Positions 11,306 through 29,499 of a stretch of 42,035 nucleotides of DNA are shown here, piece after piece. The notes beneath the pieces are model-generated. The model had not been told where the DNA came from. It was given only the letters and a program-made list of their open reading frames with translations, and searched no databases. The stretch's first letter is position 1. Each line of letters starts with the position of its first letter. This stretch comes from Nitrospira sp. (GTDB taxonomy: Bacteria > Nitrospirota > Nitrospiria > Nitrospirales > Nitrospiraceae). Location of the stretch: NCBI GenBank assembly GCA_005116955.1, contig SWDI01000005.1:264928-306962 (forward strand). Reading direction: 5' to 3'. A program made the position numbers and the translations under genes.

Positions 11306-11371
11306 GGCAGTCCTCCCCTCGCCACTGTAGGCGTCTATCGTTCTGCTGGGCACGACGAATGTCCACGAAAT

Positions 11372-11800
11372 CTAGACAAGAGGGCGAGGCGGACCGCGAG
11401 AAAAGATGGGGTCTGGAGACGGCACGGATGGCTGAACGGAGACGATGTTCGGTGGCGCCCAAGAACAGGCTTCGGCAGCTGAACCGACGGCACACACAAA
11501 CCCGAGCACCTTGGCAAAGAGCTGTGTGAGAGATTTTTGATCCGACGAATCGTGAAGCAGTGATAAGCAGAACTCGGTGTGCCCATCACCTACGTGCGCA
11601 GACGGTGCACGCTCGCCGACATTCTCCTGCACTGAATGGCCCGCTCGAACGACTCGCCGATGGTTATCGAATTCGCAGTCAAGATCCGGAGACCACACCG
11701 TGTGCACGGTGCCTCCGTGAATGTGTCCCGATTGTCCGTGGCGGTGATCCGCTTCGGGGTGGACGTGAAAGAAGGGGACAACCAGCATCCACACCCCCAC
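11372..11800 (-). CDS. DUF2946-like His-rich small exported protein (copper cluster copy)
   Basis: The frame is 142 codons from a GTG at 11798-11800, but the true start is uncertain: the sequence before it continues a plausible signal peptide back to an ATT codon just after an in-frame TGA. It has a hydrophobic N-terminus ending in PFFHVHPEADHRHG, several His-rich stretches (HGQSGHIHGG), cysteines in the second half, and a C-terminal SRGPPRP. The Arg-x-Pro-Pro end and His-rich middle are features I associate with DUF2946 small proteins, and three others occur in this window. It sits 66 bases upstream of the adaptor gene, so it is probably the first gene of the efflux operon. A role in periplasmic metal binding is inferred, not shown. 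Confidence 0.6.
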   Translation of the reverse strand: MGVWMLVVPFFHVHPEADHRHGQSGHIHGGTVHTVWSPDLDCEFDNHRRVVRAGHSVQENVGERAPSAHVGDGHTEFCLSLLHDSSDQKSLTQLFAKVLGFVCAVGSAAEACSWAPPNIVSVQPSVPSPDPIFSRGPPRPLV

Positions 11801-11993
11801 CCATCCGAAGACCGCCGTGCGAGCTGATGAGCGAATTCAACAAGGTATTCTCATCACAGCCTCAGCCTAGCACGATTCTGAATTGTCATCAATCACACGA
11901 GAATGACGAACCAGTCATTGGCGTAGGCCATCGTAAACTCACCTAGCAACATGCGTATGAGACCCATCGGTCCGGCATGAACCAGTCAGAAAC

Positions 11994-12146
11994 TCACCGT
12001 ACATCCTCGAATTCCCAGAAATGCATCGCGGGCATGCCGCGAACGCTGATGGGCGCCGGGATAGCCATGCACGTGATTTCCTCAGGCAGGCTGTCTTTGA
12101 GTGCCTCAAGCGTGACCTCAGCATTCTCATCAAAGGGCGGTTTCAA
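11994..12146 (-). CDS. Possible 50-residue ORF of unknown function
   Basis: A frame from a TTG at 12144-12146 to a TGA at 11994-11996 encodes an acidic peptide beginning LKPPFDENAEVTLEALKDSL and ending MHFWEFEDVR. Its codon pattern and amino-acid composition look coding rather than random. There is no clear ribosome site and an in-frame TAG stands three bases before the TTG-containing codon pair, so it may be a remnant of a longer gene. It lies in the 426-base stretch between the Cu-ATPase and the DUF2946-like gene, where nothing else is recognisable. Confidence 0.3.
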   Translation of the reverse strand: MKPPFDENAEVTLEALKDSLPEEITCMAIPAPISVRGMPAMHFWEFEDVR

Positions 12147-12226
12147 GTCCTACGTGCAACAGGTGAATGAAGGTGAGGGGAACAATTGCACGAGGAGGTG
12201 TACTGTTATTGGATAGTCAAGGCGTG

Positions 12227-14851
12227 TTACAGAGGTAACCTCCGCAACCGAAGCGCGTTCGCGATGACTGAGACGGAACTAAACGTCATGGCAGCACTAG
12301 CGATCATTGGGCTCAAGAGCACCCCGACGAACGGATAGAGAACCCCGGCGGCGATCGGAACTCCCAATGTGTTGTAGACGAACGCGAAGAAAAGGTTCTG
12401 GCGAATGTTCTTCATCGTCCCTCGACTCAACCGGCGCGCTCTGGCGATGGCTCGAAGATCGCCCTTCACCAGCGTCACACCCGCGCTTTCCATCGCCACA
12501 TCAGTCCCGGTTCCCATGGCAATCCCCACGTGCGCCTGCGCCAAAGCCGGCGCATCGTTGATCCCATCTCCCGCCATGGCCACGACATGTCCGTCTGCTT
12601 GGAACCGCTTGATGACCGCCGCCTTTTGCTCGGGCAAGACATCGGCCTGCACTTCATCGATCTGGAGCCTGCGCGCCACCGCCTCAGCGGTCGTCCGGTT
12701 GTCACCGGTCAGCATCACGATCCGCAGTCCTTCACGATGCAATAAATCGATGGCCTCCGGCGTGGTGGGCTTGACCGGATCAGCCACGCCCAGCAACCCT
12801 GCCGGCTTGCCATCGATTGCCGCGAACATCACGGTCTGGCCCTCACGTCTTAAAGGTTCAGCCTGCGCCAACAAGGCCGTCGTCTCGATGTTCGACTCGT
12901 TGAGAAACAGAGCTGTCCCCACGGTCACCACACGGCCCTCAACCGTCCCCGTGACTCCTTTCCCCGTGAGTGAACGAAAACCCTGTGCCTTCGCGGCAAC
13001 GATTCCCTTGTCTCGTGCACCAGACACGATCGCCGCCGCCAAGGGATGCTCGCTGCCTTGCTCCAACCCAGCTACTAACTTCAGAAGCTCCGTCTCGCGA
13101 AAATCCGGTAACGGAGCGACCGTCATGAGACGAGGCTTGCCCTCCGTCAGCGTGCCAGTTTTGTCTACAACGAGAATGTCCACCTTTGCCAAGGTCTCCA
13201 GCGCTTCCGCGTTTCGGATCAACACCCCTGCCGTCGCGCCACGTCCGGTGCCGACCATGATCGACATGGGTGTCGCAAGTCCCAATGCACAGGGACAGGC
13301 GATGATCAACACCGCAACCGCGTTCAATAACGCATAGGCCATACGCGGTTCGGGACCAAGGAACGCCCACATCGTGAAGGTGACGAGGGCAACAAGGATC
13401 ACGATCGGTACAAAATACCCAGCCACGACATCAGCCAACCGTTGAATCGGTGCGCGCGTGCGCTGCGCTTCGCTGACCATGCGGACAATTTGAGAGAGCA
13501 ACGTCTCGCAACCGACTCGCTCGGCCCGCATGACGAAACTGCCCGTTCCATTGACGGTCGCCCCCACCACTTTCTGTCCTGCTCGCTTTTCCACGGGAAT
13601 CGATTCACCGGTGACCATCGATTCGTCGACGGTACTCATCCCATCCACCACCACTCCATCGACGGGTATCTTCTCACCTGGTCGGACGCGTAATTGGTCC
13701 CCCACCTGGACCTGGTCCAATGGAATATCCTCTTCGCGATCAGCCCGGACAATCCGCGCCGTCTTTGGCGCGAGCCCTAAGAGCGCCTTGAGGGCGCTGC
13801 TGGTTTGACTCCGAGCCCGTAATTCCAGCACCTGCCCCAGCAAAACCAGCGCGATGATGGCTACCGCTGGTTCAAAGTAGACGGCGAGCGCTCCGCCGTG
13901 ACCACGGAACGAATCAGGGAACAGGCCTGGCGCGAGAGTTGCCACGACGCTGTAGAAATAGGCCGCACCGGTACCAAGACCGATGAGGGTAAACATATTC
14001 AAGTGGCGATTGACGAGCGAGGCCCACGCTCGTTCAAACAACGGCCACCCAACCCAGAACACCACCGGCGTCGCCAGCGCGAACTGAAACCAGACCAGTG
14101 CTCTTCCTGAAAAGAGGTGCTGCAACGGCTGACTCGGCATCATCTCTGAAACCATCAACGCCAGGATGGGCAAGCCAAGCACAACGCTCTGCCAAAATCG
14201 GCGAGTCATGTCGACCAGCTCGGGATTGGCTTCTTCCATTGTCACCGTACGAGGCTCCAAGGCCATCCCGCAGATCGAGCAACTCCCAGGATCAACCTGC
14301 ACAATTTCTGGATGCATGGGACAGGTATATTCGGTCCGCGTGCTCGCAACCGTCACGTCCGCTGGCTCCAGCGCCATCCCGCAGACAGGGCAAGCGCCCG
14401 GCTTGGTTTCCGACACCTCTGGATCCATCGGGCAGACATATTGGACGCTGCCGCCGGCTGGGCCAGGCGTCGGCTTCGGAATGCGCTGGTCAGGTGGGGT
14501 CAGATAATAGTCGGAATCGGCTCTGAATTTTTCTAGACATCGAGTGGCACAGAAGTAATACGTCTTCCCTCCATATTCGTACGAACCGGCTGCAGTGGCC
14601 GGTTGCACTGTCATACCACACACGGGATCGATCTCACCCGGCGTCGCCTGCACCATCATCGGCAGCGGCTTCCGCGGAGCAGGCATGGTGATGAGAGTGA
14701 GCGGCTTCTGGCTCAGCGCCCGGTCGGGGTCGGCACGAAACCGTTCCAGACATGACACGGCGCAAAAATAATAGGTCGTGCCGTTATGGTCATACCGACC
14801 GGCCGCCTTGGCCGGATCAACCGTCATACCGCAGATAGGATCAATCGCCAT
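12227..14851 (-). CDS. copA: Cu(I)-exporting P1B-type ATPase with two YHS and two heavy-metal-binding domains
   Basis: The protein has 874 residues from the ATG at 14849-14851. It pumps Cu(I) out of the cytoplasm at the cost of ATP. Four metal modules precede the core: YHS domains at about 4-44 and 75-115 (DPxCGMTV...YYFC..xC) and two CPMxPE...CxxCGMAL domains at about 139-162 and 176-200. The core has CPC at 519-521, [11 protein letters not shown] with the phosphorylated Asp563, the nucleotide-binding domain, and [10 protein letters not shown]. The YN...P motif near the end and the [17 protein letters not shown] segment are the Cu(I) (P1B-1) signature. Classical HMA domains are absent. It lies 51 bases downstream of a DsbA-like gene on the same strand. 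The name follows the ATPase usage and is distinct from the multicopper oxidase also called CopA. Confidence 0.95.
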
Positions 14852-14902
14852 TATCAACGGGCCTCTTCTCGTCCCCTTCTACTATTCCCCTTTCACTCCT
14901 CA

Positions 14903-16184: not shown

Positions 16185-16323
16185 TGAGCCTCATCGGTCA
16201 AGCGACCGTCATATGCCCACCCCTCAGACCAGACATTTCCTATTGGCACCCAACATCTCAGGGGCAAGATACCTGCCCGATGGAGAAGCACAGATGACAA
16301 AGATAGCTCGTCGGGAGGATCGA

Positions 16324-17013
16324 ATGAAAAAACACGGCTCCTCGAACCTAAGCTCGTCCGTCGTGAACACACTGAAGGAACACATCGTTCACTGGCACTA
16401 CCCGCCGGAACACCGGTTAACCGAAGACGAATTGTGCAAGACCTTCGGCGTGAGCCGCAGTCCAGTTCGGGAGGCGCTCCGGGTGTTGGCAGCTGATGGC
16501 TTCGTTAAAAAACTGCCGAATCGGAGTTACGCGGTCAAGCAGTATAGCATCGAAGAAATCGAGGAGCTGTATGAGGTGCGCCTAGCCCTGGAGCTCTATA
16601 CCGTCGAACGCCTCGCGACCAAGAAACAGACGACACAGCTTGCTGCCGATCTTGCCGACCTTAAACAAACCTGGACTGAACTTTTGAAGGAATCGTCCAA
16701 GAAACCAGAGGAATTCGCCATCCTGGACACACTCTTTCACGATACACTGGCCCGAGCACTGGGAAATAAATCCCTTCTGCAGCACCTTCGGACCATCAAT
16801 GAACGCCTCAGGCTGTTTCGAATGCTCGATTTTGAGAGACGCGACCGCGCTAAACACACCTGCCACCAACATCTGGAGATTTTGGATCGGATTGTGGCTA
16901 AGGATGCCCCAGGCGCGCGTGCCGCCATGCAGATGAATATCGAGGAAGGACGCCGCCTCATCCCTACAACGATCAAAGATGCGCTGGCCAGGGCTTACTT
17001 AAAGAATACCTAA
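16324..17013 (+). CDS. GntR-family regulator, FCD (FadR-type) subgroup, copy 1
   Basis: The protein has 229 residues from the ATG at 16324, which follows GGGAGG by five bases; an ATG at 16294 is a second candidate. The N-terminal winged helix (LTEDELCKTFGVSRSPVREALRVLAADGFV) is textbook GntR. The C-terminal all-helical FCD domain keeps an Asp-x3-His pair (LDTLFH) and a later His (CHQHLEIL), both usual metal or effector ligands, while the usual last His appears replaced by Asn (MQMNIEEG). By eye about two thirds of residues match copy 2, and the recognition helices are nearly identical, so both may bind the same operator. It probably controls the ureide locus downstream. The 16185-16323 gap shows no palindrome. 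Confidence 0.92.
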   Translation: MKKHGSSNLSSSVVNTLKEHIVHWHYPPEHRLTEDELCKTFGVSRSPVREALRVLAADGFVKKLPNRSYAVKQYSIEEIEELYEVRLALELYTVERLATKKQTTQLAADLADLKQTWTELLKESSKKPEEFAILDTLFHDTLARALGNKSLLQHLRTINERLRLFRMLDFERRDRAKHTCHQHLEILDRIVAKDAPGARAAMQMNIEEGRRLIPTTIKDALARAYLKNT

Positions 17014-17134
17014 ATTGTACTGCATAATCTCTGGAACGATGGTCGGCATCTTGGGTTTACCTCGCCCCACCCCCTCCCAACGCTTGACATTTTTCATACC
17101 GTGAGAGCGAGCACGAGCAGGACGTCCAGGCAGA

Positions 17135-17164
17135 TTGAACTTAGTAGACCTAATTGTATACAAT
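17135..17164 (+). promoter_or_regulatory. Promoter with palindromic GntR-type operator
   Basis: TTGAAC at 17135-17140 and TATACA at 17157-17162 are spaced by 16 bases and make a reasonable sigma-70 promoter. The -10 box lies inside a perfect 12-base palindrome, ATTGTATACAAT (17153-17164). FCD-type GntR proteins typically bind such short palindromes built on TGT/ACA, so repression of the second regulator by itself or its twin is likely. It lies 104 bases before the ATG at 17269. A nearly identical site occurs before fdrA. The rest of the 255-base gap shows no other clear element apart from an isolated TTGACA at 17084. Confidence 0.6.
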
Positions 17165-17268
17165 CAATAGGGCTGGTGCCGCCGGAAATAAACCCGGTTT
17201 GTCTGTCCGCACAGCATGTGACATCCACCTTGGGTTATTCCTGAGGTTCAGACTCGCGAAAGAATATC

Positions 17269-17979
17269 ATGATTCGCAATGACCGAATCGTAGAAGAAGA
17301 ACCATCCAACCTTAGTTCATCGATTGTCGCCACACTGAAAGAACAGATCATTCACTGGCACTACCCACCCGAACATCGGCTGACCGAAATCGAACTCTGC
17401 AAGACATTCAACGTGAGTCGGAGCCCTGTCCGGGAAGCGCTCCGTGTACTGGCAACCGATGGATTCGTAAAGAAATTGCCGAATCGCGGCTACGTGGTCA
17501 GGCAGCATAACATCGTTGAGATCGAGGAGCTGTATGAAGTGCGACTAGCCCTGGAACTCTATGCCGTCGAATGCTTAGCAAAGAGGGGTCCGCTCAACAA
17601 AAATGATGGGGAGGACTTGGTTAAGTTAAAGCGGACCTGGACTGGCCTGCTGAACGGATCTTCCAAGAAAGCCGAGGAACTCGCCAGACTAGACACTCAG
17701 TTTCACGAGACACTCGCCCAAGCTGCAGGAAACAAGATGCTCTTGCGGCACCTTCGGACCATCAACGAGCGCTTGATGCTTTTTCGTATGATCGATTTCG
17801 ACAAGACGGATCGAGCCAAGAGCACATGCCATCAACATCTTAAAATCCTGAAGTGCATAACAGCCCAGGATACGCCTGGAGCACGGGCGACAATGCAACA
17901 AAACATCGAAGAGGGACGCAACAACGTCCATACGGCGATCAAGGATGCATTAGCCAGAGCCTACTCGATGAAAACCTAA
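17269..17979 (+). CDS. GntR-family regulator, FCD (FadR-type) subgroup, copy 2
   Basis: The protein has 236 residues and is a tandem paralogue of the preceding gene. The winged helix (LTEIELCKTFNVSRSPVREALRVLATDGFV) and the FCD domain with LDTQFH and CHQHLKIL are conserved. The segment after residue 100 (KRGPLNKNDGEDLVKL) and the C-terminal ligand region differ most from copy 1, which suggests that the two sense different effectors or respond differently to one. Its own promoter holds the palindrome at 17153-17164. It lies 38 bases before the DUF2877 gene and could be cotranscribed with it. Role inferred: ligand-responsive control of the transporter and catabolic genes that follow. Confidence 0.92.
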   Translation: MIRNDRIVEEEPSNLSSSIVATLKEQIIHWHYPPEHRLTEIELCKTFNVSRSPVREALRVLATDGFVKKLPNRGYVVRQHNIVEIEELYEVRLALELYAVECLAKRGPLNKNDGEDLVKLKRTWTGLLNGSSKKAEELARLDTQFHETLAQAAGNKMLLRHLRTINERLMLFRMIDFDKTDRAKSTCHQHLKILKCITAQDTPGARATMQQNIEEGRNNVHTAIKDALARAYSMKT

Positions 17980-18017
17980 TGAGCGCCCCGTAATTTCGGG
18001 ACGATGGGGTACCCATC

Positions 18018-18998
18018 GTGCGTGTTCAGGCCCTTTCGGTCGGCATTCAGGTACCGCGCCATCCTTTCAGCGGAACCGTGCACAGTGTGTTCCGCCAGGC
18101 CTGCAACCTATGGCTAGAGACTGATACACTATTGACCCTACTTTCATGCCAGAAAGGTAATGTCCCTCACGGCATTCGCTTAGACACCTCATCTCATTTT
18201 GACTTCCTACATACCCTTCGAGTTGGACAATCAGCCGCATGTCGGGGAGGAATACTCCGCATCGACGGAGCTGATTGTTCCGTCGATCTGCGACCTGCAC
18301 GCCCCTGGCACATCGATCTCAAAGGGTTGTACATCGATCTTTGCCGACCCACTCAGGCTCAATCCTGGGCAGTTGCTTGGTCCGAATTGAAATCGCATCA
18401 TTGTAAAAGTGGCATGTCGGAGAATCTTGGTGCCTTTTTCCTATCGGAAGGACGACCTGCCACACCAGTGGCCTCGGAGATTCTTCTCCAACAGGGAGCT
18501 TACACTATCCCGTCACTCCTACAGACGACATGTCGCCTCCAATTAAGAGAGTCCATGATCTCCGTTCAATCACTGATCGGACTTGGATACGGATTGACTC
18601 CCTCAGGCGATGATTTTCTCGTGGGTTATTTGGCCGGATTATGGTGCACGGCAGGGGCCAACCTATCTCGGATCCAATTTCTGATGGCCTTAGGCTCTGA
18701 ACTGTCACAAGTGTCACGGAATACCAATGATATTAGCTGCACCTATCTCCGATCCGCAGCCAAGGGCCATGTCTCGGAACCGATCGCGAAATTAGCGCAG
18801 CGACTGACCCAGGCAAACGATATGAGCAACATCAGGGCAGCCACGCAAGCCGCGTTGCAAGTCGGCCATACTTCTGGCTCCGACGGGGTGTTAGGCCTGC
18901 TGTTGGGCTGTCTTGTGTGGCAGGGCCTGCCTCCGCATCTCATTTTCAGTGACCTTCTTCGTTTGTCTGTTATCTGCAATTCAAGATCCCAACCATGA
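18018..18998 (+). CDS. allH: DUF2877 protein, AllH-like subunit of a carbamoyltransferase
   Basis: The protein has 326 residues from a GTG at 18018-18020. The signature GLGYGLTPSGDDFLVGYLAGL is split as GLGYGLTPSGDDFL at about 188-201 followed by the helix VGYLAGLW; this Gly/Asp motif defines DUF2877. In E. coli the DUF2877 protein YlbF (AllH) works with FdrA (AllF) and YlbE (AllG) as an oxamate carbamoyltransferase that turns oxalurate and phosphate into oxamate and carbamoyl phosphate. Here it precedes fdrA and the DUF1116 gene instead of following them, with 290 bases between. The start is the least certain point; no strong ribosome site is visible. The family is secure; the substrate in this organism is unknown. 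Confidence 0.85.
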   Translation: MRVQALSVGIQVPRHPFSGTVHSVFRQACNLWLETDTLLTLLSCQKGNVPHGIRLDTSSHFDFLHTLRVGQSAACRGGILRIDGADCSVDLRPARPWHIDLKGLYIDLCRPTQAQSWAVAWSELKSHHCKSGMSENLGAFFLSEGRPATPVASEILLQQGAYTIPSLLQTTCRLQLRESMISVQSLIGLGYGLTPSGDDFLVGYLAGLWCTAGANLSRIQFLMALGSELSQVSRNTNDISCTYLRSAAKGHVSEPIAKLAQRLTQANDMSNIRAATQAALQVGHTSGSDGVLGLLLGCLVWQGLPPHLIFSDLLRLSVICNSRSQP

Positions 18999-19089
18999 AA
19001 CTAGAATCGAAAGACGCAAGAGGTGATGAAACGATGTCCGTTCATCGAGTGACTCGGCCTATGACCCGAACTCAGGCTTTGCCCTTGAC

Positions 19090-19101
19090 TTGGTATACAA
19101 T
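19090..19101 (+). promoter_or_regulatory. Second copy of the GntR-type operator, before fdrA
   Basis: TTGGTATACAAT differs from the perfect palindrome at 17153-17164 in the first and fourth bases only. It follows TTGACT (19085-19090), a possible -35 box, in the 290-base gap between the DUF2877 gene and fdrA. A binding protein here would overlap or flank the -35 region of an fdrA promoter. I could not fix a convincing -10 box (TATCAG at 19127 paired with TTGTGT at 19104 is one option). The rest of 18999-19288 shows nothing else. Confidence 0.5.
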
Positions 19102-19288
19102 CTTGTGTTCAAGTTGGCTGTCTGAGTATCAGATATTAAGTCGGCCGTTCGTTCCTTATTCTTCGACGAGGCATCACGCTGCTGGATTGGACGTTCGCCA
19201 CATAAGCCATCGGCGGGAGGTCAACTCACCCGCCTGACGTTGACGCTGTGAGCCTGCCAAGGCGAAGCGTCGATGGGGGACCATCTAC

Positions 19289-20845
19289 ATGGCCAGGGCG
19301 ACAAAAATAATCCGGAACTTCTACCGCGACTCCGTCTCGTTGATGCAGCTGTCTTCCACGATTACCAAACTGCCCGGCGTGGAACAAGCGTCGGCCATCA
19401 TGGCCTCTCCCAACAATGTGACACTTCTCGTGGAAGCGGGCCTGTTGGCGAAACCCGTTGAAGCTGGCGCCAACGACTTGTTGATCGCTCTTCAAGGAAA
19501 TGCCGAGGCACTTGAATCGGCGCTTACTGCGGCAGAATCCGCGCTGAAGCAACCTTCCCCTTCGTCGACCGGCAATGAACAATCACGCGGCATGTCTCCC
19601 CGCAGCATCGAGATGGGGCTCGGGAACCTCATCGGCGCAAACCTCGTTTTGATCTCCACGCCGGGCGAGTACGCTGCGGCGGAGGCCTTCAAGGCGTTGG
19701 GGCTCGGCCTCAATGTCATGCTCTTTAGTGACAACATCGAGATCAAGGACGAGATCGCACTCAAACGGTTCGCCCAGGAGCGTGATCTCATTGTCATGGG
19801 CCCGGACTGCGGAACCGCCATTATCAATGGCATCCCGCTTGCGTTCGCGAATGTGGTGCGTCGCGGAGTCATCGGTGTCGTCGCCGCATCTGGCACTGGC
19901 CTCCAACAGGTAACCTGCCTGGTCGACCGATGGGGCAGTGGCATCTCCCAGGCGATCGGAACGGGTGGACACGATCTGCACCGCGATGTCGGCGGTATGT
20001 CCATGCTTCAGGGCCTTAAGGCGCTGGCAGCCGATCCCTCCACCTCCGTGATTGTGCTCATTTCTAAACCTCCGTCACCAGAGGTAGCCAGCAAGGTACT
20101 GGGGGTAGCCAGCGGCGCAGGCAAGCCGGTAGTCGTCAATTTTCTTGGTGCCGATCCCGATCAGGTGAGACGCGGGAATATTTACCCCGCCGCGACACTC
20201 GAGGATGCAGCAGCGGCGGCGGCGGCGCTCGCCAACGGCCAACCTCCCGAAGCCAGGCGAGCGAGTGTGCCCCCTTTTTCCATCACACCTCTTGCTCCGC
20301 AGCAGCGATACGTTCGGGGCCTCTATAGCGGCGGCACCTTTTGCTACGAGGCTTCGCTCATCCTGAAAAAAGAACTGGGGCAGATCAATTCCAACACTCC
20401 AGTGGAGCCAGGGGATCGCTTGAGCGATGTCTGGACCAGTCAAAAGCACACGGTCATTGATCTGGGCGACGATCTCTTCACTCGTGGACGCCCCCATCCC
20501 ATGATCGACCACCGGCTCCGCAATGAGCGGCTGATCAAGGAAGCCAGCGATCCCGAGGTGGCGGTGATCCTGCTGGACGTTGTCCTTGGCTACGGATCTC
20601 ACCCAGATCCTGCCGCTGAAATGGTCCCGGCGATTCAGAAGGCGCGTGATCTTGCCACTAAAGCAGGCAGACATCTGGCCATCATGGGATTCGTCTGCGG
20701 CACAGCAGCGGACCCTCAGAATCTGTCCAGACAGGAAACAGCTTTTCGAGAGGTCGGGGTCACCCTTGCGGAGAGCAACGCTCAGGCTGTGCGCATGGCT
20801 GCCTCTATGGTGCTGGAGGCTGGCGCCGTCGGAGGGCGATTGTGA
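19289..20845 (+). CDS. fdrA: FdrA/AllF, succinyl-CoA-synthetase-like subunit of a carbamoyltransferase
   Basis: The protein has 518 residues, with a GGGGGA site eight bases before the ATG. FdrA has the fold of the succinyl-CoA synthetase alpha and beta halves but lacks the phosphohistidine loop of true synthetases. Visible features are the N-terminal SSTITKLPGVEQASAIMAS segment, a Rossmann-like domain, MGPDCGTAIING near residue 170, AIGTGGHDLHRDVGG near 222, a nucleotide-type loop, and a second half containing VVLGYGSHPDPA. In E. coli it is AllF, one subunit of the oxamate carbamoyltransferase of anaerobic allantoin use. The next gene starts inside its stop (GTGA overlap). No allantoinase, allantoate or ureidoglycolate gene is in the window, so the native substrate may be another ureide. 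Confidence 0.93.
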   Translation: MARATKIIRNFYRDSVSLMQLSSTITKLPGVEQASAIMASPNNVTLLVEAGLLAKPVEAGANDLLIALQGNAEALESALTAAESALKQPSPSSTGNEQSRGMSPRSIEMGLGNLIGANLVLISTPGEYAAAEAFKALGLGLNVMLFSDNIEIKDEIALKRFAQERDLIVMGPDCGTAIINGIPLAFANVVRRGVIGVVAASGTGLQQVTCLVDRWGSGISQAIGTGGHDLHRDVGGMSMLQGLKALAADPSTSVIVLISKPPSPEVASKVLGVASGAGKPVVVNFLGADPDQVRRGNIYPAATLEDAAAAAAALANGQPPEARRASVPPFSITPLAPQQRYVRGLYSGGTFCYEASLILKKELGQINSNTPVEPGDRLSDVWTSQKHTVIDLGDDLFTRGRPHPMIDHRLRNERLIKEASDPEVAVILLDVVLGYGSHPDPAAEMVPAIQKARDLATKAGRHLAIMGFVCGTAADPQNLSRQETAFREVGVTLAESNAQAVRMAASMVLEAGAVGGRL

Positions 20846-22254
20846 TACAGGCCCTGTTTCAAGAGAAGCTCCATGTCTTGAATGTCGGCCTATCTTCTTT
20901 CGCCGATTCAATCACGAGGGCAGGCGGTTCTGTGCTACAGATTGAATGGGCCCCTCCCGCTCAGGGGCAGCAGGAGGTCGGTCGCGCTTTGGCCCGGTTG
21001 GTCAACCTGCTCTCCGTCGAAACCGCCAACCAGACAGCATTCGATGCCTACCAATCAGCCCAGCCAGTGTTGAAGGGCGTGGGCACCGCCGGCCAGGTGC
21101 TGCCCAACATCACAGAACGAATGATCCTGCACAGTGGTCCTCCCATTGCCTGGAAGGAGATGTGCGGGCCCATGAAGGGAGCCATCGTCGGGGCGATTCT
21201 CTATGAAGGCTGGGCCGAGAATCTCGCCAGGGCGGAGGCCATGGCCTCCAGCGGTGACATCACGTTCGAGCCGTGCCACCACCACAATGCCGTCGGACCG
21301 ATGGCCGGGATCATCAGCCCATCCATGCCGGTCTGGATGGTGACCAATACGACCAACGGCCATCAGGCGTTCTGCAACTTTAACGAGGGCCTCGGCAAGG
21401 CGCTCAGGTTCGGCGCCAATGGTCCGGACGTGATCACCCGTCTGAAATGGATGGGGCAGGTACTCGCACCAGCCCTGCGAGCGAGCATTGAACTCCTAGG
21501 CGGGATCGACCTCAAGCCTATGATGGCGCAGGCCCTCCACATGGGCGACGAAGTACATAATCGTAACGCCGCTGCCTCCTCGCTGTTTCTAAAACGTCTC
21601 ATTTCAGCTTTATTGAAGACACGCACCTCCGCTGCCGACATCGCGGCGGTCGTCGAGTTCATCGCCGGCAACGACCACTTCTTCTTAAATCTGTCCATGG
21701 CAGCATGTAAAGCGATGACCGACGCAGCCCATGGCGTTCCAGGCAGCAGCATGGTCACAGCCATGGCCCGCAACGGAGTCGAGTTCGGCATTAGAGTCAG
21801 CGGCACCGGGAGCAGATGGTTTACGGCACCAGCCCCAGTCGTCGATGGACTCTTCTTTCCCGGATACAGCACGGCCGACGCAGCACCTGATCTGGGAGAT
21901 AGTGCCATCACCGAAACCGCCGGTGTCGGCGGATTTGCCATGGCGGCGTCCCCGGCCATCGTCAAGTTTGTCGGCGGCACGCCGCAGGACGCGATCGACA
22001 ACACCATGGCCATGACGCATATCACTGTTGGCCGCAACAATGCCTTCACGCTGCCGGCACTGAACTTTGCCGGCTCACCGGCGGGCATCGACATCCGAAA
22101 GGTCGTCGATACCGGTATTCAACCGATCATCAATACAGGGATTGCCCATCGCGAAGCAGGGGTCGGGCAAATTGGAGCAGGGATCACTCGTGCTCCCCTC
22201 GCCTGCTTCACACAAGCCGTGTCTGCGCTGGCCAAGTTGGTAAGTGCGACGTAA
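20842..22254 (+). CDS. allG: DUF1116 protein, YlbE/AllG-like subunit of a carbamoyltransferase
   Basis: The protein has 470 residues from a GTG that overlaps the fdrA stop by four bases, implying coupled translation and a fixed subunit ratio. It carries the DUF1116 landmarks: VLNVGLSSFADSI at the start, a CHHHNAVGPMAG cluster near residues 143-154 that may form the active centre, then GVEFGIRVSG and FAMAASPAIVKFVGG. E. coli YlbE (AllG) is a subunit of the oxamate carbamoyltransferase. The C-terminus (GVGQIGAGITRAPLACF) is typical. Together with FdrA, the DUF2877 protein and the carbamate kinase just downstream it should produce and use carbamoyl phosphate. Confidence 0.92.
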   Translation: MIQALFQEKLHVLNVGLSSFADSITRAGGSVLQIEWAPPAQGQQEVGRALARLVNLLSVETANQTAFDAYQSAQPVLKGVGTAGQVLPNITERMILHSGPPIAWKEMCGPMKGAIVGAILYEGWAENLARAEAMASSGDITFEPCHHHNAVGPMAGIISPSMPVWMVTNTTNGHQAFCNFNEGLGKALRFGANGPDVITRLKWMGQVLAPALRASIELLGGIDLKPMMAQALHMGDEVHNRNAAASSLFLKRLISALLKTRTSAADIAAVVEFIAGNDHFFLNLSMAACKAMTDAAHGVPGSSMVTAMARNGVEFGIRVSGTGSRWFTAPAPVVDGLFFPGYSTADAAPDLGDSAITETAGVGGFAMAASPAIVKFVGGTPQDAIDNTMAMTHITVGRNNAFTLPALNFAGSPAGIDIRKVVDTGIQPIINTGIAHREAGVGQIGAGITRAPLACFTQAVSALAKLVSAT

Positions 22255-22272
22255 CACACTCGAAGGAACCCT

Positions 22273-23223
22273 ATGGGAACCGCTAACAAACTTGCCGTCG
22301 TCGCTGTCGGAGGCAACGCGCTGATCCGCGACAAGGATCACGAATCGATTCAGGATCAAAGTCGTGAGGCGGTGATCACGACACATCACATCGCGGAGAT
22401 GATCGCAGCCGGGTGGAATGTCGTCATCACCCATGGGACCGGTCCTCAGGTCGGCTTCATTCTGCGCCGCTCCGAATTAGCCTTAGAGGAAGTTCCTCCC
22501 GTACCGATGGACTATGCCGATGCCGATCTGCAGGGCGGCATCGGATACATGTTCCTCAAAGCCCTCTACAACGAATTTCGCAAGCAAAAGATCGATCGGA
22601 AGGCGGTAGCCATCATCACGCAGACCTTGGTGGACCGACACGACCCGGCATTTGCCAATCCCTCTAAACCGATCGGATCTCAGATGGACGAACAGACCGC
22701 GCAACGGCTCGCTTCTCGCCAAGGATGGGTGGTCAAGGAAGATGCGGGACGCGGGTGGCGGCGAGTTGTGCCGTCGCCGCAGCCAAAGACCATTGTCGAA
22801 TTGGCGGCCATCAACCTCTTGGCTCGGGCTGGATTTGTCGTCATTGCTTGCGGTGGCGGTGGGATTCCTGTGATTCAAGACGAGGAAGGGAACCTGATTG
22901 GCGTCGAAGCTGTCATTGACAAGGACTTGGCGTCAAGCCTGCTGGCCCGTGGTATTGGGGCTGATTTGTTGCTGGTCTCCACAGGGGTCGAGAAGGTGGC
23001 CATCAACTTCAATAAGCCTAACCGGCGATGGCTGGAACGTATGACCGTGGCTGAAGCCAAGAAACATTATGCGGACAATCAATTCGATAGAGGCAGTATG
23101 GGACCGAAGATTCAGGCAGTAATTGAATTCATAGAAGGGGGAGGGCAAACCGGGCTGATCACCAATCCTGAGAATATCGGCCGCGCCCTGGCCGGCGAAA
23201 CGGGAACATTTATTGTGAAGTAA
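22273..23223 (+). CDS. arcC: Carbamate kinase
   Basis: Carbamate kinase converts carbamoyl phosphate and ADP to ATP, CO2 and ammonia. The protein has 316 residues, the normal length. Visible family motifs are VAVGGNALI (residues 9-17), VITHGTGPQVGF, the DADLQGGIGYM loop, ACGGGGIPVI, AVIDKDLAS, STGVEKVAINF and GSMGPKIQAVIEF. An AAGGA site precedes the ATG, 18 bases after the DUF1116 gene. Placement next to the carbamoyltransferase genes matches allK in E. coli allantoin loci. No arginine deiminase or ornithine carbamoyltransferase is nearby, so carbamoyl phosphate most likely comes from the FdrA-type enzyme. This step would give energy by substrate-level phosphorylation as well as free ammonia. 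Confidence 0.96.
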   Translation: MGTANKLAVVAVGGNALIRDKDHESIQDQSREAVITTHHIAEMIAAGWNVVITHGTGPQVGFILRRSELALEEVPPVPMDYADADLQGGIGYMFLKALYNEFRKQKIDRKAVAIITQTLVDRHDPAFANPSKPIGSQMDEQTAQRLASRQGWVVKEDAGRGWRRVVPSPQPKTIVELAAINLLARAGFVVIACGGGGIPVIQDEEGNLIGVEAVIDKDLASSLLARGIGADLLLVSTGVEKVAINFNKPNRRWLERMTVAEAKKHYADNQFDRGSMGPKIQAVIEFIEGGGQTGLITNPENIGRALAGETGTFIVK

Positions 23224-23235
23224 CGCAGCACGCCT

Positions 23236-23398
23236 AGGATGCTCAAAAAGGCTGCCCAGCAAGGCCGCAGCGAGTGAAAAGGCGAGGCGTAGTCAATATC
23301 ACCCGCCCGCCCCGAGCTGCTCAGGCAGCTCTTGCCCGATGGTACATTGAGCCTTTGAGCGATGCGAGAACGCAGCTGGCGGACTTTTTCAGCATCCT
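23236..23398. repeat. Palindromic intergenic element, copy A
   Basis: The element is 163 bases long with near-perfect terminal inverted repeats: AGGATGCTCAAAAAG on the left and CTTTTTCAGCATCCT on the right. The similarity of the two arms continues inward for about 50 bases, so the whole can fold into a long imperfect hairpin. Its centre holds a separate stem, GAGCTGC-TCAG-GCAGCTC at 23314-23331. It separates arcC from the transporter genes and could act as an attenuator or mRNA stability element. A fuller relative lies at 37648-37767 and a right-end fragment at 30596-30637. Confidence 0.85.
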
Positions 23399-23438
23399 AG
23401 TAGGTCGCCATACACATCTCACCCTGAGGGAGGGGCAT

Positions 23439-24575
23439 ATGTCCGAATCACGCAAACTGACGAGACGCCAAGTACTACAGGGGACTGCAGCTGCCGGGGC
23501 GCTGGGCATGTTGGGCAACGTGGAGTGGATCGGCCAAGCCTGGGGCGCATCGGACAAGGTGAAGATGGGCTTCATCTTTGTAGGTCCACGAGACGACTAT
23601 GGGTACAATCAGGCACATTTTGAAGGGAAAGCGGCGGTCGCCAAGCTGGATTGGGTAAAAGCCTTCGACGAAGAAAAGGTCCCGGAGACCATCGAGGTCC
23701 AAAAAACCATGGAAAGTATGGTCAAGCTGGACGGGGCTCAAGTGTTGTTTCCCACTTCCTTCGGTTATTTCGATCCCCATATAATCAAGGTCGCGCCACT
23801 ATTTCCCAACATCCAGTTTTTGCATTGCGGGGGGCTGTACCAAGAGGGCAAACACCCCAAGAACGTCGGAAGTTACTTTGGCTTCATTGATGAGTCGCAA
23901 TATATCGCCGGCATCGTCGCAGGCGGAATGAGCAAGAGCGGGAAGCTGGGGTTTGTGGCGGCGAAGCCCATTCCGCAAGTGTTGCGCAACATCAACAACT
24001 ATACCCTCGGTGCCCGCAGCATCAGACCCAACTGTACGACCAATGTGATTTTTACGGGCGACTGGTCGCTGCCGGTCCGTGAAGCGGAAGCCACGAACAG
24101 TTTGGTCGACCAAGGCATCGATGTCATCACTTGCCACGTCGACAGCCCCAAGGTCGTCATCACAACCGCCGAAAAACGAGGCATCTACTGCACCGGGTAT
24201 CACTGCAACCAATCCAAGCTTGCCCCGAAAGGGTATCTCACAGGAGCGGAATGGAATTGGGCCAAGGTCTACATGGATTATGCCGACATGATTCGAAAAG
24301 GGCAGACTGTACCTCATCTCGTGCGTGGTGGTTTAAAGGAAGGAATCGTCAAGGTATCGGACTATAACCAGGTCGTCACCGACGCTGTTCGCAAACAAGC
24401 CGACGCCGCCAAAGACAAATTCATGGGTGGGGGGATGGTCGTGTACAAGGGCCCGATCAAAGACAATGCCGGTCGCGTCGTCATTGCTGCAGGCAAGGAA
24501 CATGTCCAGACGGATATCTGGCTGGAAAGTATGGATTGGCTGGTCGAGGGAGTCATCGGTTCAACCAAGTCGTGA
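23439..24575 (+). CDS. BMP-family ABC transporter substrate-binding protein
   Basis: The protein has 378 residues from the ATG at 23439, which has a GAGGGAGGGG ribosome site; the longer frame back to 23274 runs through the palindromic repeat and is rejected. The leader has a twin-arginine-like motif (TRRQVLQG) and a hydrophobic core, so export may go by Tat. The mature protein is a BMP/Med-type (PF02608) periplasmic binding protein: KMGFIFVGPRDDYGYNQAH, GAQVLFPTSFGYFDP, HCGGLYQEGKHPKNVGSYFGFIDESQYIAGIVAG. Known BMP proteins bind nucleosides and related heterocycles or, in some branches, purine breakdown products. Genes for two permeases and an ATPase follow, making a complete importer. The ligand is not readable from the sequence; a ureide would suit the context. 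Confidence 0.92.
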   Translation: MSESRKLTRRQVLQGTAAAGALGMLGNVEWIGQAWGASDKVKMGFIFVGPRDDYGYNQAHFEGKAAVAKLDWVKAFDEEKVPETIEVQKTMESMVKLDGAQVLFPTSFGYFDPHIIKVAPLFPNIQFLHCGGLYQEGKHPKNVGSYFGFIDESQYIAGIVAGGMSKSGKLGFVAAKPIPQVLRNINNYTLGARSIRPNCTTNVIFTGDWSLPVREAEATNSLVDQGIDVITCHVDSPKVVITTAEKRGIYCTGYHCNQSKLAPKGYLTGAEWNWAKVYMDYADMIRKGQTVPHLVRGGLKEGIVKVSDYNQVVTDAVRKQADAAKDKFMGGGMVVYKGPIKDNAGRVVIAAGKEHVQTDIWLESMDWLVEGVIGSTKS

Positions 24576-25636
24576 GCATAGCCGTGCCACAGACCTTGAA
24601 TAAAGCGCTGGAACCGTTCCTCATCATCGTCGGATCCCTGACGGTCTCGATGGTGTTATTCGGAATCTTTGTGGCGTCGGCCGGAGCCGACCCGTTCGAG
24701 GTCTATCAGACCATGTATCGTGCCGCCTTCGGCACCTCATTTTCCTGGCAGAACACGTTGGTGCGAGCCGCGCCGTTGATGCTGACAGCCCTCTGTACCG
24801 CACTGCCGGGGTATCTGGGCTTGATTATTATCGGAGGCGAAGGCGCCGTCGTCATGGGTGGCCTCTTCGCAGCCATTGTGGCTCTCACCATGCCCACAGC
24901 TCCTCCCATAGTCGTTCTGACCACCATGGCACTGGCCGGCATGATAGCCGGCGGCGTGTGGCTTATGATTGGAGGAGCATTGCGGCACTATCGCGCCGTC
25001 AATGAAACCATCAGCAGCCTGTTGCTGAACTACATCGCCATCGCCCTGCTGAACCACCTTGTCACCAGCACCTTTCGCGATCCTGAAAGCCTCAACCATC
25101 CTTCGACCCATCATATCGGAGAGGCCAACATGATCGGTGTGATTCCTGGAACAGATCTTCACTGGGGATTGGTGTTCGGTATCGTAGCCTGTGTCATCGC
25201 ATGGTTTCTCATGCATCACACCGTCTTCGGCTTCGCGTCTCAAATCGCCGGGGGCAATGTGCGCGCGGCCCAGGTCGCAGGCTTGCCGGTTGGACGGCTG
25301 ATTTTGATCATCTGTTGCGCGGCAGGAGCGGCAGGTGGACTGGCAGGGATGCTGGAAGTGGCGGCCATACACGGCAGAGCCAATGATACCCTCAATGCCA
25401 ATTATGGATACGCCGGCATTCTCGTCGCCTTTGTGGCACGCAATAATCCATTAGCCATCATTCCCGTTGCCGTCTTACTGGGAGGCATTCGCGCCAGCAG
25501 CGGGTTATTGCAGCGTACGCATGAGTTACCCGATGCGACCGTGCTCGTCATGCAGGGAATCATTTTCCTCGTCATTCTCTTTAGCGAAACCCTGTACGGT
25601 CGTTTTTCGAGATTGCAGAAACAAGGAGCATCCTGA
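24572..25636 (+). CDS. ABC transporter permease, BMP/nucleoside-type, first subunit
   Basis: The protein has 354 residues from a GTG that overlaps the preceding stop by four bases. It is a hydrophobic protein with 8-10 predicted helices of the BPD_transp_2 (YufP-like) family: ALCTALPGYLGLIIIGGEGAVVMGG is split here as LPGYLGLIIIGGEGAVVMG, with AVNETISSLLLNYIAIALL and AGGNVRAAQVAGLPVGR further on. The NETISSLLLNYIA segment is the usual contact region of the nucleoside-type permeases. It pairs with the next gene to form the membrane channel. The longer upstream frame from 24536 lies inside the binding-protein gene and is not used. Confidence 0.92.
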   Translation: MSIAVPQTLNKALEPFLIIVGSLTVSMVLFGIFVASAGADPFEVYQTMYRAAFGTSFSWQNTLVRAAPLMLTALCTALPGYLGLIIIGGEGAVVMGGLFAAIVALTMPTAPPIVVLTTMALAGMIAGGVWLMIGGALRHYRAVNETISSLLLNYIAIALLNHLVTSTFRDPESLNHPSTHHIGEANMIGVIPGTDLHWGLVFGIVACVIAWFLMHHTVFGFASQIAGGNVRAAQVAGLPVGRLILIICCAAGAAGGLAGMLEVAAIHGRANDTLNANYGYAGILVAFVARNNPLAIIPVAVLLGGIRASSGLLQRTHELPDATVLVMQGIIFLVILFSETLYGRFSRLQKQGAS

Positions 25637-26553
25637 TGGAAGTCGGGTGGTGGGGAGTGCTCATCGCCGTACTCGGTGGAGCGATTCGAATCGGTACGCC
25701 GTTTCTGTTTGTGTCGCTGGGCGAATGCTTGACCGAGAAAAGCGGCCGCATCAATTTGGGCCTAGAAGGCACACTGGTCATGGGCGCCATGACCGGCTAC
25801 GCCGTCTCACTGCATAGTGGGTCTCCGTGGTTGGGAGTCTTGTGTGCCGGCCTGGCAGGCATGGTGCTCGGGGCCTTACACAGCTGGATCTGCAGTTTCC
25901 AACGAGTCAACGACATCGCAGTCGGGATCGCAATGATGCTCTTCGGCACGGGGTTAGCCTTTTTTCTGGGGAAGCCCTATATCCAGCCATCTGCGCCTCG
26001 ATTACCCTCGATCGATCTCGGCGCGTGGAGTGATATTCCGCAGCTCCAGGCGGCTCTGCAGATCAATGCCTTGTTTCTGGTCGGGATCGTTGTCGCGGTC
26101 GTACTCGGATGGATGTTGAAGAACACGGCATGGGGATTAAAGGTCCGGGTCGTCGGCGAAAGCGCCGATGCGGCACGCGCCCTAGGATTGCCAGTTGATC
26201 GTATACGGATCCTCAGCACGGCTCAAGGAGGATTCTTGGCCGGAATCGGTGGGTCCTATCTCTCCCTCTACTACCCATTCAACTGGAGCGAAGGCCTTTC
26301 GAGCGGGCAGGGGCTGATGGCGGTGGCGCTGGTGATCTTTGCCCGCTGGCAACCGATCGGCTGCCTCTGGGTATCGCTCTTGTGGGGAGGGGCGGCTGCG
26401 TTAGGGCCATCCTTGCAATCCGTGGGAGTCACAGGAGGATATTATATCTTCAACGCCATCCCCTACATCATGACGCTGGCTATGATGATCATCACCTGCT
26501 CTCCCAAACGGACTCTCGTGGGAGTCCCGCGTGAGTTGACTGTGACTCGTTAG
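25636..26553 (+). CDS. ABC transporter permease, BMP/nucleoside-type, second subunit
   Basis: The protein has 305 residues and resembles YufQ. Its ATG shares one base with the stop of the first permease (TGATG). Family motifs are GTPFLFVSLGECLTEKSGRINLGLEG, given here as LGECLTEKSGRINLGLEG, then RVNDIAVGIAMMLFGTG and GESADAARALGLPVDRIR. The strongly hydrophobic helices and a short cytoplasmic tail fit an inner-membrane permease. It forms a heterodimer with the product of the previous gene. The next gene follows after 47 bases. Confidence 0.92.
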   Translation: MEVGWWGVLIAVLGGAIRIGTPFLFVSLGECLTEKSGRINLGLEGTLVMGAMTGYAVSLHSGSPWLGVLCAGLAGMVLGALHSWICSFQRVNDIAVGIAMMLFGTGLAFFLGKPYIQPSAPRLPSIDLGAWSDIPQLQAALQINALFLVGIVVAVVLGWMLKNTAWGLKVRVVGESADAARALGLPVDRIRILSTAQGGFLAGIGGSYLSLYYPFNWSEGLSSGQGLMAVALVIFARWQPIGCLWVSLLWGGAAALGPSLQSVGVTGGYYIFNAIPYIMTLAMMIITCSPKRTLVGVPRELTVTR

Positions 26554-26600: not shown

Positions 26601-27284
26601 ATGGATAAGAAATATGTCGCATCCAATCCCTACCCCTATCCATACAATGGGGATTTACGGCCGGATAATTCTGTCTTTCTCATTATCGATATGCAGACGG
26701 ATTTTTGCGGCAAGGGTGGCTATGTCGACAAGATGGGCTACGACATTTCTCTCACCCGAGCCCCGATCGCCCATATCCTCAAGGTGCTGTCGAAAGCCAG
26801 AACCATTGGCATGCATATCTTCCACACGAGAGAAGGCCATCGTCCGGACTTGGCAGATCTACCGGACAATAAGCGGTGGCGCAGCCGGAGAATCGGAGCC
26901 GGCATCGGAGATCCCGGTCCTTGCGGGAAAATCCTGGTTCGAGGGGAGCCTGGATGGGAGATCATCCCTGAACTCGCTCCTAAACCGGGCGAACCCATCA
27001 TCGATAAGCCTGGCAAAGGCTCGTTTTGGGCGACCGATCTGGAGATGTTGCTGAGACTTCGCGGCATCCAAAATGTGATCTTGGCCGGGATCACCACCGA
27101 TGTCTGTGTCCATACCACCATGCGCGAAGCGAATGATCGTGGTTTCGAATGTCTCTTACTGGAAGACTGTTGCGGCGCAACTGATTTGGGAAATCATCAG
27201 GCTGCGATCAAGATGGTCACCATGCAGGGCGGAGTGTTCGGCGCCGTGGCAAAATCTGACGGCCTATTAGAGGCGCTTTCATGA
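26601..27284 (+). CDS. biuH: Biuret-hydrolase-like cysteine hydrolase (isochorismatase family)
   Basis: The protein has 227 residues, with a GAAGAGGTG site before the ATG. The cysteine-hydrolase triad is Asp30 (IIDMQTDFC), Lys136 ([10 protein letters not shown]) and Cys169 ([17 protein letters not shown]). From memory, the biuret hydrolase BiuH of Rhizobium leguminosarum has Asp36, Lys142 and Cys175, a constant offset of six, and long stretches such as [27 protein letters not shown] and [11 protein letters not shown] agree with that protein. BiuH hydrolyses biuret to allophanate and ammonia (EC 3.5.1.84). It sits between the permease and ATPase genes of an importer. Related isochorismatase-fold enzymes (RutB, N-carbamoylsarcosine amidase) are less alike. 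I consider biuret the best guess, with closely related ureides possible. Confidence 0.85.
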
Positions 27285-28804
27285 CGGATGGAGCTCCTCC
27301 AGATTTGCAGGCGTTGGGGATTACCAAACGCTTCGGACCACTCGTGGCCTTGAAGGACGTGAACTTCCACCTCCGATCAGGTCAATTCCATGCCCTGCTC
27401 GGTGAAAACGGCGCGGGCAAAAGCACCCTGGTCAAATGCATCATGGGGTATTACCACCCTGATGAGGGGAAAATTGTATTGGATCAGCAAGCGGTCACGA
27501 TCCATAGCCCTCGCGACGCACAGACTTTCGGGATCGGCATGGTGTATCAGCAATTTACTCTGATCCCCAACATGACGGTCCTCGAGAACCTGGTGATCTC
27601 CAAGGCCAAGTTGGACCCCGTCATCAATTGGCAGCAGGAAGAGCATCAGCTGACACAGTTCATGGACACAATGCCGTTCAAGGTATCGCTCTCCACTCGC
27701 GTCAGTTCGCTTGCCGCAGGCGAAAAACAAAAAGTGGAAATCCTTAAACAACTCGCGCTGCGGAACCGCATCCTTATTTTGGACGAACCAACCTCGGTCC
27801 TGACCCCACAAGAAGCGGATGAAGTCCTGGGCCATCTCCGGGCCATGACCTTGGCGAAACAAGTGAGTGTCCTCATCATTACCCACAAGCTTCGCGAAGT
27901 GGCGGCCTTTGCTGACGAAGTGACCGTCCTTCGCAAGGGACAATTCGTGGGTTCAGGAAACGTCTCGGGATTGAACGTCTCTCAGATGGCGGAGATGATG
28001 GTAGGTTCGGAAGTGACGGCGAAGCCGAAACAACGGACCGTCCTGTCAAAGAAAGTTCCAAAGCTGGTCCTACAAGATATCCGTGTCAAGGATGATATCG
28101 GGGTGGAAGTCGTGCGCGGGCTGCATCTCACCATCCATGAAGGCGAGATCGTCGGAGTGGCGGGGGTATCGGGCAATGGCCAGCGAGAACTGGTCGAGAT
28201 CCTGTCTGGGCAACGCCAGACCACGTCCGGCACGATCCACGTGCAGGATCAGCCTTTTCAGCCGACTCGCGAGCAGATCATGCGGCACAAGATTTTTTGC
28301 CTGCCTGAAGAACCGCTCCAGAACACGTGCGTCGGACGCATGACGGTGGCGGAGAACCTCGCCTTTCGGAATTTCGATCGTGAACCTCACGCGGTGGGCG
28401 GCTGGCTCATCAGCCGCCCGGCACTGCGCCGCAGCGCGTTCGGGCTGATCGAGCGCTACAACATCAAACCACCCTATCCCGACACGCCCATTCAGTCGCT
28501 CTCGGGAGGCAACATACAGCGGGCAGTCCTGGCGCGAGAGCTGTCGGCGGAGGTAGAGATTCTGATCATCGCCAACCCCTGTTTCGGGCTGGATTTTCTG
28601 GCCATGGAGGAAATTCGTCTGCAGATTGTCGCCGCGCGCAATCGCGGGACGGCCGTGTTGCTGGTCAGCGAAGATCTCGACGAAATCCTGGAGCTGTCCG
28701 ACCGCACGGTGGTCATGTTCAACGGGCAACTCGTCTATGAAACCACGTCGTCCGGCGCCGACCTGGCGATCATTGGGCGACACATGACAGGACATACGAC
28801 ATGA
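27281..28804 (+). CDS. ABC transporter ATP-binding protein with two ATPase domains, BMP/nucleoside-type
   Basis: The protein has 507 residues and overlaps both neighbours by four bases. Domain 1 has Walker [10 protein letters not shown] (41-49), the signature [15 protein letters not shown] and Walker [15 protein letters not shown]. Domain 2 has a degenerate Walker A (GVSGNGQRE), a good signature ([14 protein letters not shown]) and a degenerate Walker B ([12 protein letters not shown]). This asymmetric double ATPase is standard for the YufO/sugar-nucleoside group. It energises the importer formed by the BMP protein and two permeases. Its position between two cysteine-hydrolase genes, with overlaps at both ends, ties uptake and breakdown into one transcript. 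Confidence 0.95.
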
Positions 28805-29499
28805 ATACCGTCATCGCATCTCCTTATCCTTATCCATTGCCGGCGAAAGGCTCAGGCAATCACGTGGCATTGGTGATCATTGATATGCAGCGCGATTTCG
28901 TCGAGCAGGGCGGATTCGGCGCGGCGCTTGGGAATACGGTCGAACATCTGCAGAAAATTGTGCCGACCGTCGCGAAACTCCTCAAGACTTTTCGTGAGTT
29001 GGGATTGCCGGTGATTCACACGAGGGAGGGCCATCGCCCCGATCTCTCAGATTGTCCGCCGGCCAAGAGACGGCGTGGAGAGTCCACGCTCCGCATCGGC
29101 GACCCCGGTCCGATGGGACGCATTCTGGTTTTGGGAGAGCCGGGAAACGATATCGTCCCGGAGCTGCACCCTGCGACCGGCGAACTCGTCATTGACAAGC
29201 CGGGCAAGGGGGCATTCTACGCCACCAATTTACAGGAACGTCTGAAGACGCTCGGCATCACTCACCTGGTGTTTACCGGCGTCACGACGGAAGTCTGTGT
29301 GCAAACCAGCATGAGAGAAGCCAACGACCGAGGTTTTGAATGTCTCCTGGTCGAGGATGGGACGGAAAGCTATTTCCCCGAGTTTAAACAGGCCACAGTC
29401 CGCATGATCCAATCGCAAGGCGGCATTGTCGGCTGGGTCACATCGGCTGATCGTCTCATCGAATCTCTTCAGCAGACCTATGCAGGGAGCACCTCGTGA
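28801..29499 (+). CDS. Second cysteine hydrolase (isochorismatase family), paralogue of the biuret-hydrolase-like gene
   Basis: The protein has 232 residues; its ATG overlaps the ATPase stop (ATGA). The triad is Asp28 (IIDMQRDFV), Lys133 ([10 protein letters not shown]) and Cys166 ([17 protein letters not shown]). It shares [24 protein letters not shown] and [13 protein letters not shown] with the preceding hydrolase but lacks its [11 protein letters not shown] and CCGATD segments and has [11 protein letters not shown] instead. It therefore probably acts on a different, related substrate. Triuret hydrolase, which makes the precursor of biuret, belongs to the same family and is known next to biuret hydrolase in some soil bacteria, so it is a leading candidate. 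Ureidoacrylate-type or other amide hydrolysis cannot be excluded. Confidence 0.85.

Follow-up and report, generated by a model that had tools for sequence, protein, structure and literature searches.

Triuret, biuret and cyanuric acid arise as impurities of fertilisers, from urate oxidation and from the breakdown of s-triazines, and to our knowledge the known routes for them waste the bond energy by hydrolysis. In Herbaspirillum, triuret is degraded through TrtA, TrtB, BiuH and AtzF, and both TrtA and cyanuric acid hydrolase, which have different substrates, yield one product, carboxybiuret (PMC7948467). A second described system is the Escherichia coli oxamic transcarbamylase AllFGH with its kinase AllK (PMC11326118). 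Rasmussen et al. 2025 (PMC12625717) reported allFGHK with biuH, trtA and atzF in complete ammonia-oxidising (comammox) bacteria and, for ammonia-oxidising archaea, allFGHK together with biuH; TrtB (carboxybiuret decarboxylase) was reported as absent in comammox, upstream purine genes were noted as lacking, and oxalurate use by cross-feeding was proposed. Here we analysed such a cluster in Nitrospira sp. (contig SWDI01000005.1, positions 264,928 to 306,962; this 42,035-nucleotide stretch is referred to as the window). Its operon encodes two GntR-type regulators, AllH, AllF, AllG and carbamate kinase (16312-23223), followed as far as 29891 by an importer, BiuH, TrtA and a stand-alone AH_C (the allophanate-hydrolase C-terminal domain). 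We lean towards reading it as an operon for the import and degradation of triuret and biuret with one energy-conserving step.

Phylogeny and gene context of AllF and AllG

The initial annotation of the window had described four oxamate-carbamoyltransferase-like genes without an allantoin pathway. All four were intact on the + strand, encoding an AllH-like subunit (DUF2877; 18018-18998; PF11392, 93 bits), an AllF-like subunit (FdrA; 19289-20845; NF004760, 503 bits against a cut-off of 433), an AllG-like subunit (DUF1116; 20842-22254; PF06545, 337 bits), with a 4-base overlap between its start and the AllF stop, and a carbamate kinase (22273-23223; TIGR00746, 366 bits against a cut-off of 358). 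The three subunits of an oxamate carbamoyltransferase were thus present with their domains and with a catabolic carbamate kinase adjoining, and no allantoin genes were found within the operon. The position of the DUF2877 gene ahead of fdrA had been taken as the sign of a variant enzyme. The order itself was correct, but it is the commonest one, being found in 29 of 35 biuret-type and 18 of 22 purine-type loci, and does not mark a variant; DUF2877 regularly follows DUF1116 only in allantoin operons.

Scanning 84,980 species genomes yielded 80 AllG loci, to which loci from plasmids, E. coli and Nitrospira relatives were added. The resulting AllG tree (94 rows) was built without two outliers; rooting on the highly divergent DUF1116 of Azospirillum was misleading. 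The window AllG fell into a 54-member clade (ultrafast bootstrap 99, Shimodaira-Hasegawa-like approximate likelihood ratio test (SH-aLRT) 90) spanning Nitrospirota, Proteobacteria, Mycobacteriaceae and Chloroflexi, together with members recorded as an acidobacterium, a deltaproteobacterium and a 'Chryseobacterium'. Informative flanks were present for 46 of these members, and all 46 were biuret-type, with triuret, biuret or cyanurate genes as neighbours and with allantoin, xanthine-dehydrogenase or cyclase genes beside none of them. The remaining 40 rows comprised 4 allantoin-linked, 26 purine-type and 4 exceptional biuret-type loci and 6 without informative flanks. The allantoin-linked AllG formed a branch of their own, separated from the clade by long branches, and neither the AllG nor the AllF of the window grouped with allantoin-linked counterparts. 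Only 3 changes of gene-context label occurred on the AllG tree, whereas shuffled labels gave 24 on average and never fewer than 19; on the AllF tree there were 2 changes, compared with a shuffled average of 22 and a lowest value of 16. The branch thus tracked with biuret-hydrolase-like genes, and the trees and the gene context supported the earlier proposal that the enzyme is a variant with another carbamoyl donor, the altered substrate being suggested by the context.

At the 36 well-flanked clade loci, which had at least 5.5 kb on either side, a TrtA-type hydrolase or cyanuric acid hydrolase was encoded at 34, AH_C at 30 (alone in 25) and carbamate kinase at 32. Outside Nitrospira, the first two were found at 29 and 25 of 31 such loci, respectively. 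Among 37 hydrolases neighbouring clade AllG loci, F35, N41 and E160 were each present in 36, and all 37 were nearer TrtA than BiuH. Since the module is coupled to TrtA or cyanuric acid hydrolase, and carboxybiuret is their common product, it would act most simply on carboxybiuret or a derivative of it.

Further arrangements were observed among the other loci. A second large AllFGH group from anaerobes and candidate phyla (L101-L134, e.g. L134:6537-14678) occurred alongside subunits of the xanthine-dehydrogenase type and a cyclase-family protein. The yahEFGIJ genes of E. coli K-12 (L053:6601-13183) form a further AllHFG-kinase set, with an AtzC/cytosine-deaminase-like amidohydrolase (YahJ), and their AllG falls on the purine-type side of the tree. 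Two very divergent DUF1116 genes had no annotated FdrA nearby, one in Rhodococcus with short-chain dehydrogenase/reductase and glutamine-synthetase-like genes (L052:8225-14755) and one in Azospirillum beside hpxZ (L054:8021-10233). On atrazine plasmids of Paenarthrobacter and Pseudomonas (L047:9001-11779, L048:9001-11485), a DUF1116 fragment and carbamate kinase precede atzC, which suggests that atzC was captured from an AllFGH-kinase-amidohydrolase cluster.

Hydrolases, importer and host genome

Amidases and an importer had been thought to take the place of the allantoin genes. The importer was confirmed; the supposed amidases are isochorismatase-family hydrolases, one a biuret hydrolase and the other a triuret-hydrolase-like protein. 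BiuH (26601-27284, +) passed its equivalog cut-off (NF050097, 407 bits against 370), shares 74% identity with the solved Rhizobium BiuH (6AZO), and carries Y35, Y41 and D160 (TrtA numbering) at the three positions separating BiuH from TrtA. The second hydrolase (28801-29499, +) shares 65% identity with the solved Herbaspirillum TrtA (6XIX) compared with 47% to BiuH, has F35, N41 and E160, catalytic D24, K129 and C162 as well as Q202, and groups with TrtA (SH-aLRT 99). The roles of these diagnostic residues have been described (PMC7948467), and judged by its sequence the protein is the triuret hydrolase TrtA.

The last gene of the operon (29496-29891, +) encodes a 131-residue AH_C protein (PF21986, 133 bits). 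The amidase-signature and AH_C fusion expected of AtzF was not found here, only the AH_C part. Its closest solved chain is 5C5Z, which we take to be c4763, a protein that is said to be uropathogen-specific ('UPEC-specific') and reportedly has had a structure since 2015. The c4763 structure paper is cited in PMC7558591. AH_C is likely an N-carboxy decarboxylase. In the wider group, AH_C stood alone in 12 of the 13 genomes having it and was fused to an amidase in one (G021). Hence the atzF reported for comammox (PMC12625717) is probably a lone AH_C domain in most cases, which we infer from our genomes and not from the gene models of that study.

The importer, on the + strand, consists of a BMP/PnrA-type substrate-binding protein with a twin-arginine translocation (Tat) signal, as read from the translation (23436-24575; PF02608 and PF10518), two ATP-binding cassette permeases (24536-25636 and 25636-26553) and an ATPase with two nucleotide-binding domains (27281-28804). 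The open reading frame of the binding protein opens at 23274, and the Tat signal lies behind the Met at 23436. The permeases and the ATPase, identified as open reading frames, showed 87-97%, 92-97% and 84-96% conservation in Nitrospira relatives, respectively. The operon runs in one direction throughout, several neighbouring genes being joined by four-base start/stop overlaps, and its gene order is kept in these relatives. Its two + strand regulators are paralogous GntR/FCD-family proteins (16312-17013 and 17269-17979; both PF00392 and PF07729). The first lies upstream of the operon also in several Nitrospira relatives, and the initial stretch of its longer open reading frame, opening at 16027, is probably non-coding. 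The counts from promoter and terminator scans were close to those expected by chance. Farther upstream on the opposite strand (6939-14857), the translations were read as a resistance-nodulation-division (RND) heavy-metal efflux system and a copper-type P-type ATPase.

The genome has 3.65 Mb and is 99.8% complete. Because it encodes an ammonia/methane monooxygenase family protein elsewhere and its close relatives are Nitrospira, the host is taken as a comammox Nitrospira. In E. coli, oxalurate comes from AllD, the ureidoglycolate dehydrogenase. A search of the whole genome gave no match to the AllD family (PF02615), with a positive E. coli control, and the best allantoinase score was 245 bits, below the TIGR03178 cut-off of 358. 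A complete allantoin route is thus absent from the genome. Its only amidase-signature protein lies outside the operon and is read as GatA-like, so no allophanate-hydrolase amidase domain is present. The related genomes searched also had one amidase each, except G021 (two), G001 (a fragment) and G034 (none). Urease is present. Cyanuric acid hydrolase gave no match in the genome, but the control genomes likewise gave none, so its absence is not proven.

Proposed pathway and alternative substrates

In the proposed pathway, the importer would take up triuret and biuret, and TrtA would deaminate triuret to carboxybiuret. AllFGH would then move the terminal carbamoyl group of a biuret-family ureide to phosphate, as with oxalurate; in the best candidate reaction, carboxybiuret and phosphate would give carbamoyl phosphate and allophanate. 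Carbamate kinase would convert carbamoyl phosphate to ATP, ammonia and CO2, and its presence at the 32 loci mentioned above fits such a product. Biuret would enter as allophanate through BiuH, while AH_C would remove the N-carboxylate from carboxybiuret or allophanate and the resulting urea would pass to the genome's urease. Carboxybiuret (H2N-CO-NH-CO-NH-COO-) differs from oxalurate (H2N-CO-NH-CO-COO-) by one inserted NH, and carbamoyl transfer to phosphate would leave a carboxylate-bearing amide from either, allophanate in the first case and oxamate in the second. Given the gene context, the substrate of AllFGH very probably lies within the triuret, biuret and allophanate group; its assignment as carboxybiuret is tentative. 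On balance, we favour the view that this widespread, horizontally shared AllFGH clade is a carboxybiuret (or allophanate or biuret) phosphorylase, which with TrtA or cyanuric acid hydrolase upstream and carbamate kinase downstream would degrade triuret and cyanuric acid with a yield of ATP, in place of the purely hydrolytic routes through AtzEG/TrtB-BiuH-AtzF. Such a route would operate in nitrifiers, in environmental bacteria and in more than a quarter of the complete E. coli genomes.

Several observations weigh against this view. The gene context does not separate carboxybiuret from biuret or allophanate, and most hydrolases outside Nitrospira form a third clade, with only 58-59% identity to TrtA in the two examples compared. 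AllFGH occurs together with a full AtzF in G021 and a few further loci; in G021, a full allophanate hydrolase replaces the lone AH_C beside AllHFGK, and TrtA is frame-broken (L043:4495-7162). Three relatives (G010, G024 and G031) keep the importer, BiuH, TrtA and AH_C without AllHFGK, and no AtzF was found in them, so AllFGHK is not essential. In such genomes, allophanate may either decay or undergo decarboxylation to urea, the substrate of urease. In G010 and G031, remnants of AllH immediately upstream of the importer (L039:7732-8025, L040:15964-16482) show that AllHFGK was lost there, not gained late.

A strict replacement, in which AllFGHK would be lost wherever AtzF is present, was rejected since the two coexist in G021 as well as in several further loci and genomes. 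At a contig end of G001 (L042:3-539), a 43-residue AllG fragment is joined to the importer ATPase, by either an assembly error or a deletion.

Two other substrates from the same group were considered. If AllFGH acted on allophanate, giving carbamoyl phosphate and carbamate, AllFGHK would replace allophanate hydrolase and AH_C would be an earlier carboxybiuret decarboxylase. The lack of an AtzF amidase domain in the window genome and, except for G021, in the related genomes searched would suit this reaction, as would the 16 other genomes with the cassette and AH_C, at least 8 of which have no full AtzF (6 have AtzF elsewhere), and the AH_C gene itself, which overlaps trtA and is retained alongside TrtA where AllHFGK has been lost. 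We nevertheless consider allophanate an unlikely substrate, as AllFGH and AtzF coexist at some loci and in some genomes, and the cyanuric-acid clusters without BiuH have no nearby allophanate-making enzyme. Biuret would give carbamoyl phosphate and urea, after carboxybiuret had been decarboxylated by AH_C or spontaneously. The half-life of that decarboxylation, about 20 minutes (PMC7948467), the urease of the genome and the lack of BiuH at most clade loci are consistent with such a reaction. Biuret and urea, however, lack the carboxylate common to oxalurate and oxamate, and BiuH in Nitrospira would compete for biuret, which makes this choice improbable as well. An ordinary module converting oxalurate from other microbes to oxamate and carbamoyl phosphate, and merely adjoining a separate triuret/biuret pathway, has been put forward for comammox and for ammonia-oxidising archaea (PMC12625717), and the subunits are homologues of the E. 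coli enzyme whose action on oxalurate/oxamate has been demonstrated (PMC11326118), but such a module is quite improbable given the long branches between the clade and allantoin-linked AllG, the 0 of 54 clade loci with allantoin genes beside them as against TrtA or cyanuric acid hydrolase nearly always and in several phyla, and the chromosomal cassette of the E. coli type strain, a species that already has allFGH for oxalurate.

Comparison with described systems

On two Klebsiella plasmids, AllFG and kinase are clustered with an equivalog of cyanuric acid hydrolase, scoring 580 bits on one plasmid and 551 on the other where the cut-off is 360; with these scores, a reading of the ring-opening hydrolases as barbiturases was rejected. 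One of these plasmids, pKqs_SB610_3 (L145:11066-20689 and 31140-50000), has two separate gene sets, one a triuret/biuret operon that includes AtzF, the other a cyanurate cluster in which AllFG, DUF2877 and kinase are accompanied by a second BMP importer. A pathway hole suspected there for want of BiuH was dropped, since the other operon of the plasmid has BiuH, TrtA and AtzF. This operon resembles that of Nitrospira in its importer (52-66% identity), BiuH (74%) and TrtA (61%), but a full AtzF and a nitrilase-type 'formamidase' replace AllHFGK and AH_C, a contrast like that between ammonia-oxidising bacteria and comammox in PMC12625717. The swap supports functional replacement, although the exchange is not one-for-one.

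Of 5,426 complete E. coli genomes, 1,542 (28%) hold an entire cassette of TrtA-type hydrolase, AllHFGK and AH_C (L014:8816-14780, L148:6001-11965), mostly on the chromosome, with some copies on ColV-type plasmids. It is present in ATCC 25922 and in the type strain DSM 30083, in the latter beside ysgA/udp, and its AH_C protein corresponds to the solved chain 5C5Z; the species has a separate allFGH copy for oxalurate. By its genes, GR 29 of E. coli BEN2908 is the same cassette, including the permease. It was described in 2026 (PMC12928451) as a CodB-like permease, a YqeA-like kinase, DUF1116, FdrA and a RutB-like hydrolase, and read as pyrimidine use with an oxamate carbamoyltransferase. Unlike in that reading, the hydrolase has the TrtA residues and is nearer TrtA and BiuH than RutB.

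If the phosphorolytic route is correct, the phosphorolytic step with carbamate kinase would gain one ATP per molecule, and a comammox bacterium would obtain both ammonia as fuel and ATP. It would also give a function to the uncharacterised E. coli cassette, c4763 included, and correct the nitrifier annotations of oxamate carbamoyltransferase and allophanate hydrolase.

The comammox gene cluster itself is already known from PMC12625717; the clusters described there are alike and evidently come from the same kind of organism. That study reads oxalurate degradation beside triuret degradation, whereas we place AllFGH within the triuret pathway and regard 'atzF' as an isolated AH_C domain. Neither that study nor PMC12928451 nor other literature found assigns AllFGH a biuret-family substrate. 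New here are the cross-phylum association, the carboxybiuret reading, the lone AH_C and the extent of the cassette in E. coli. With the Herbaspirillum triuret pathway (PMC7948467), the Nitrospira operon shares TrtA and BiuH with their diagnostic residues, but it has no AtzF amidase domain and has AllHFGK and a lone AH_C instead. With the E. coli AllFGH-AllK system (PMC11326118), it shares the three subunits and the kinase, and a like phosphorolysis chemistry is proposed; it differs in lacking allantoin genes, in belonging to a separate clade, in its gene order (H-F-G-K compared with F-G-H-K) and in having TrtA, AH_C and BiuH as neighbours.

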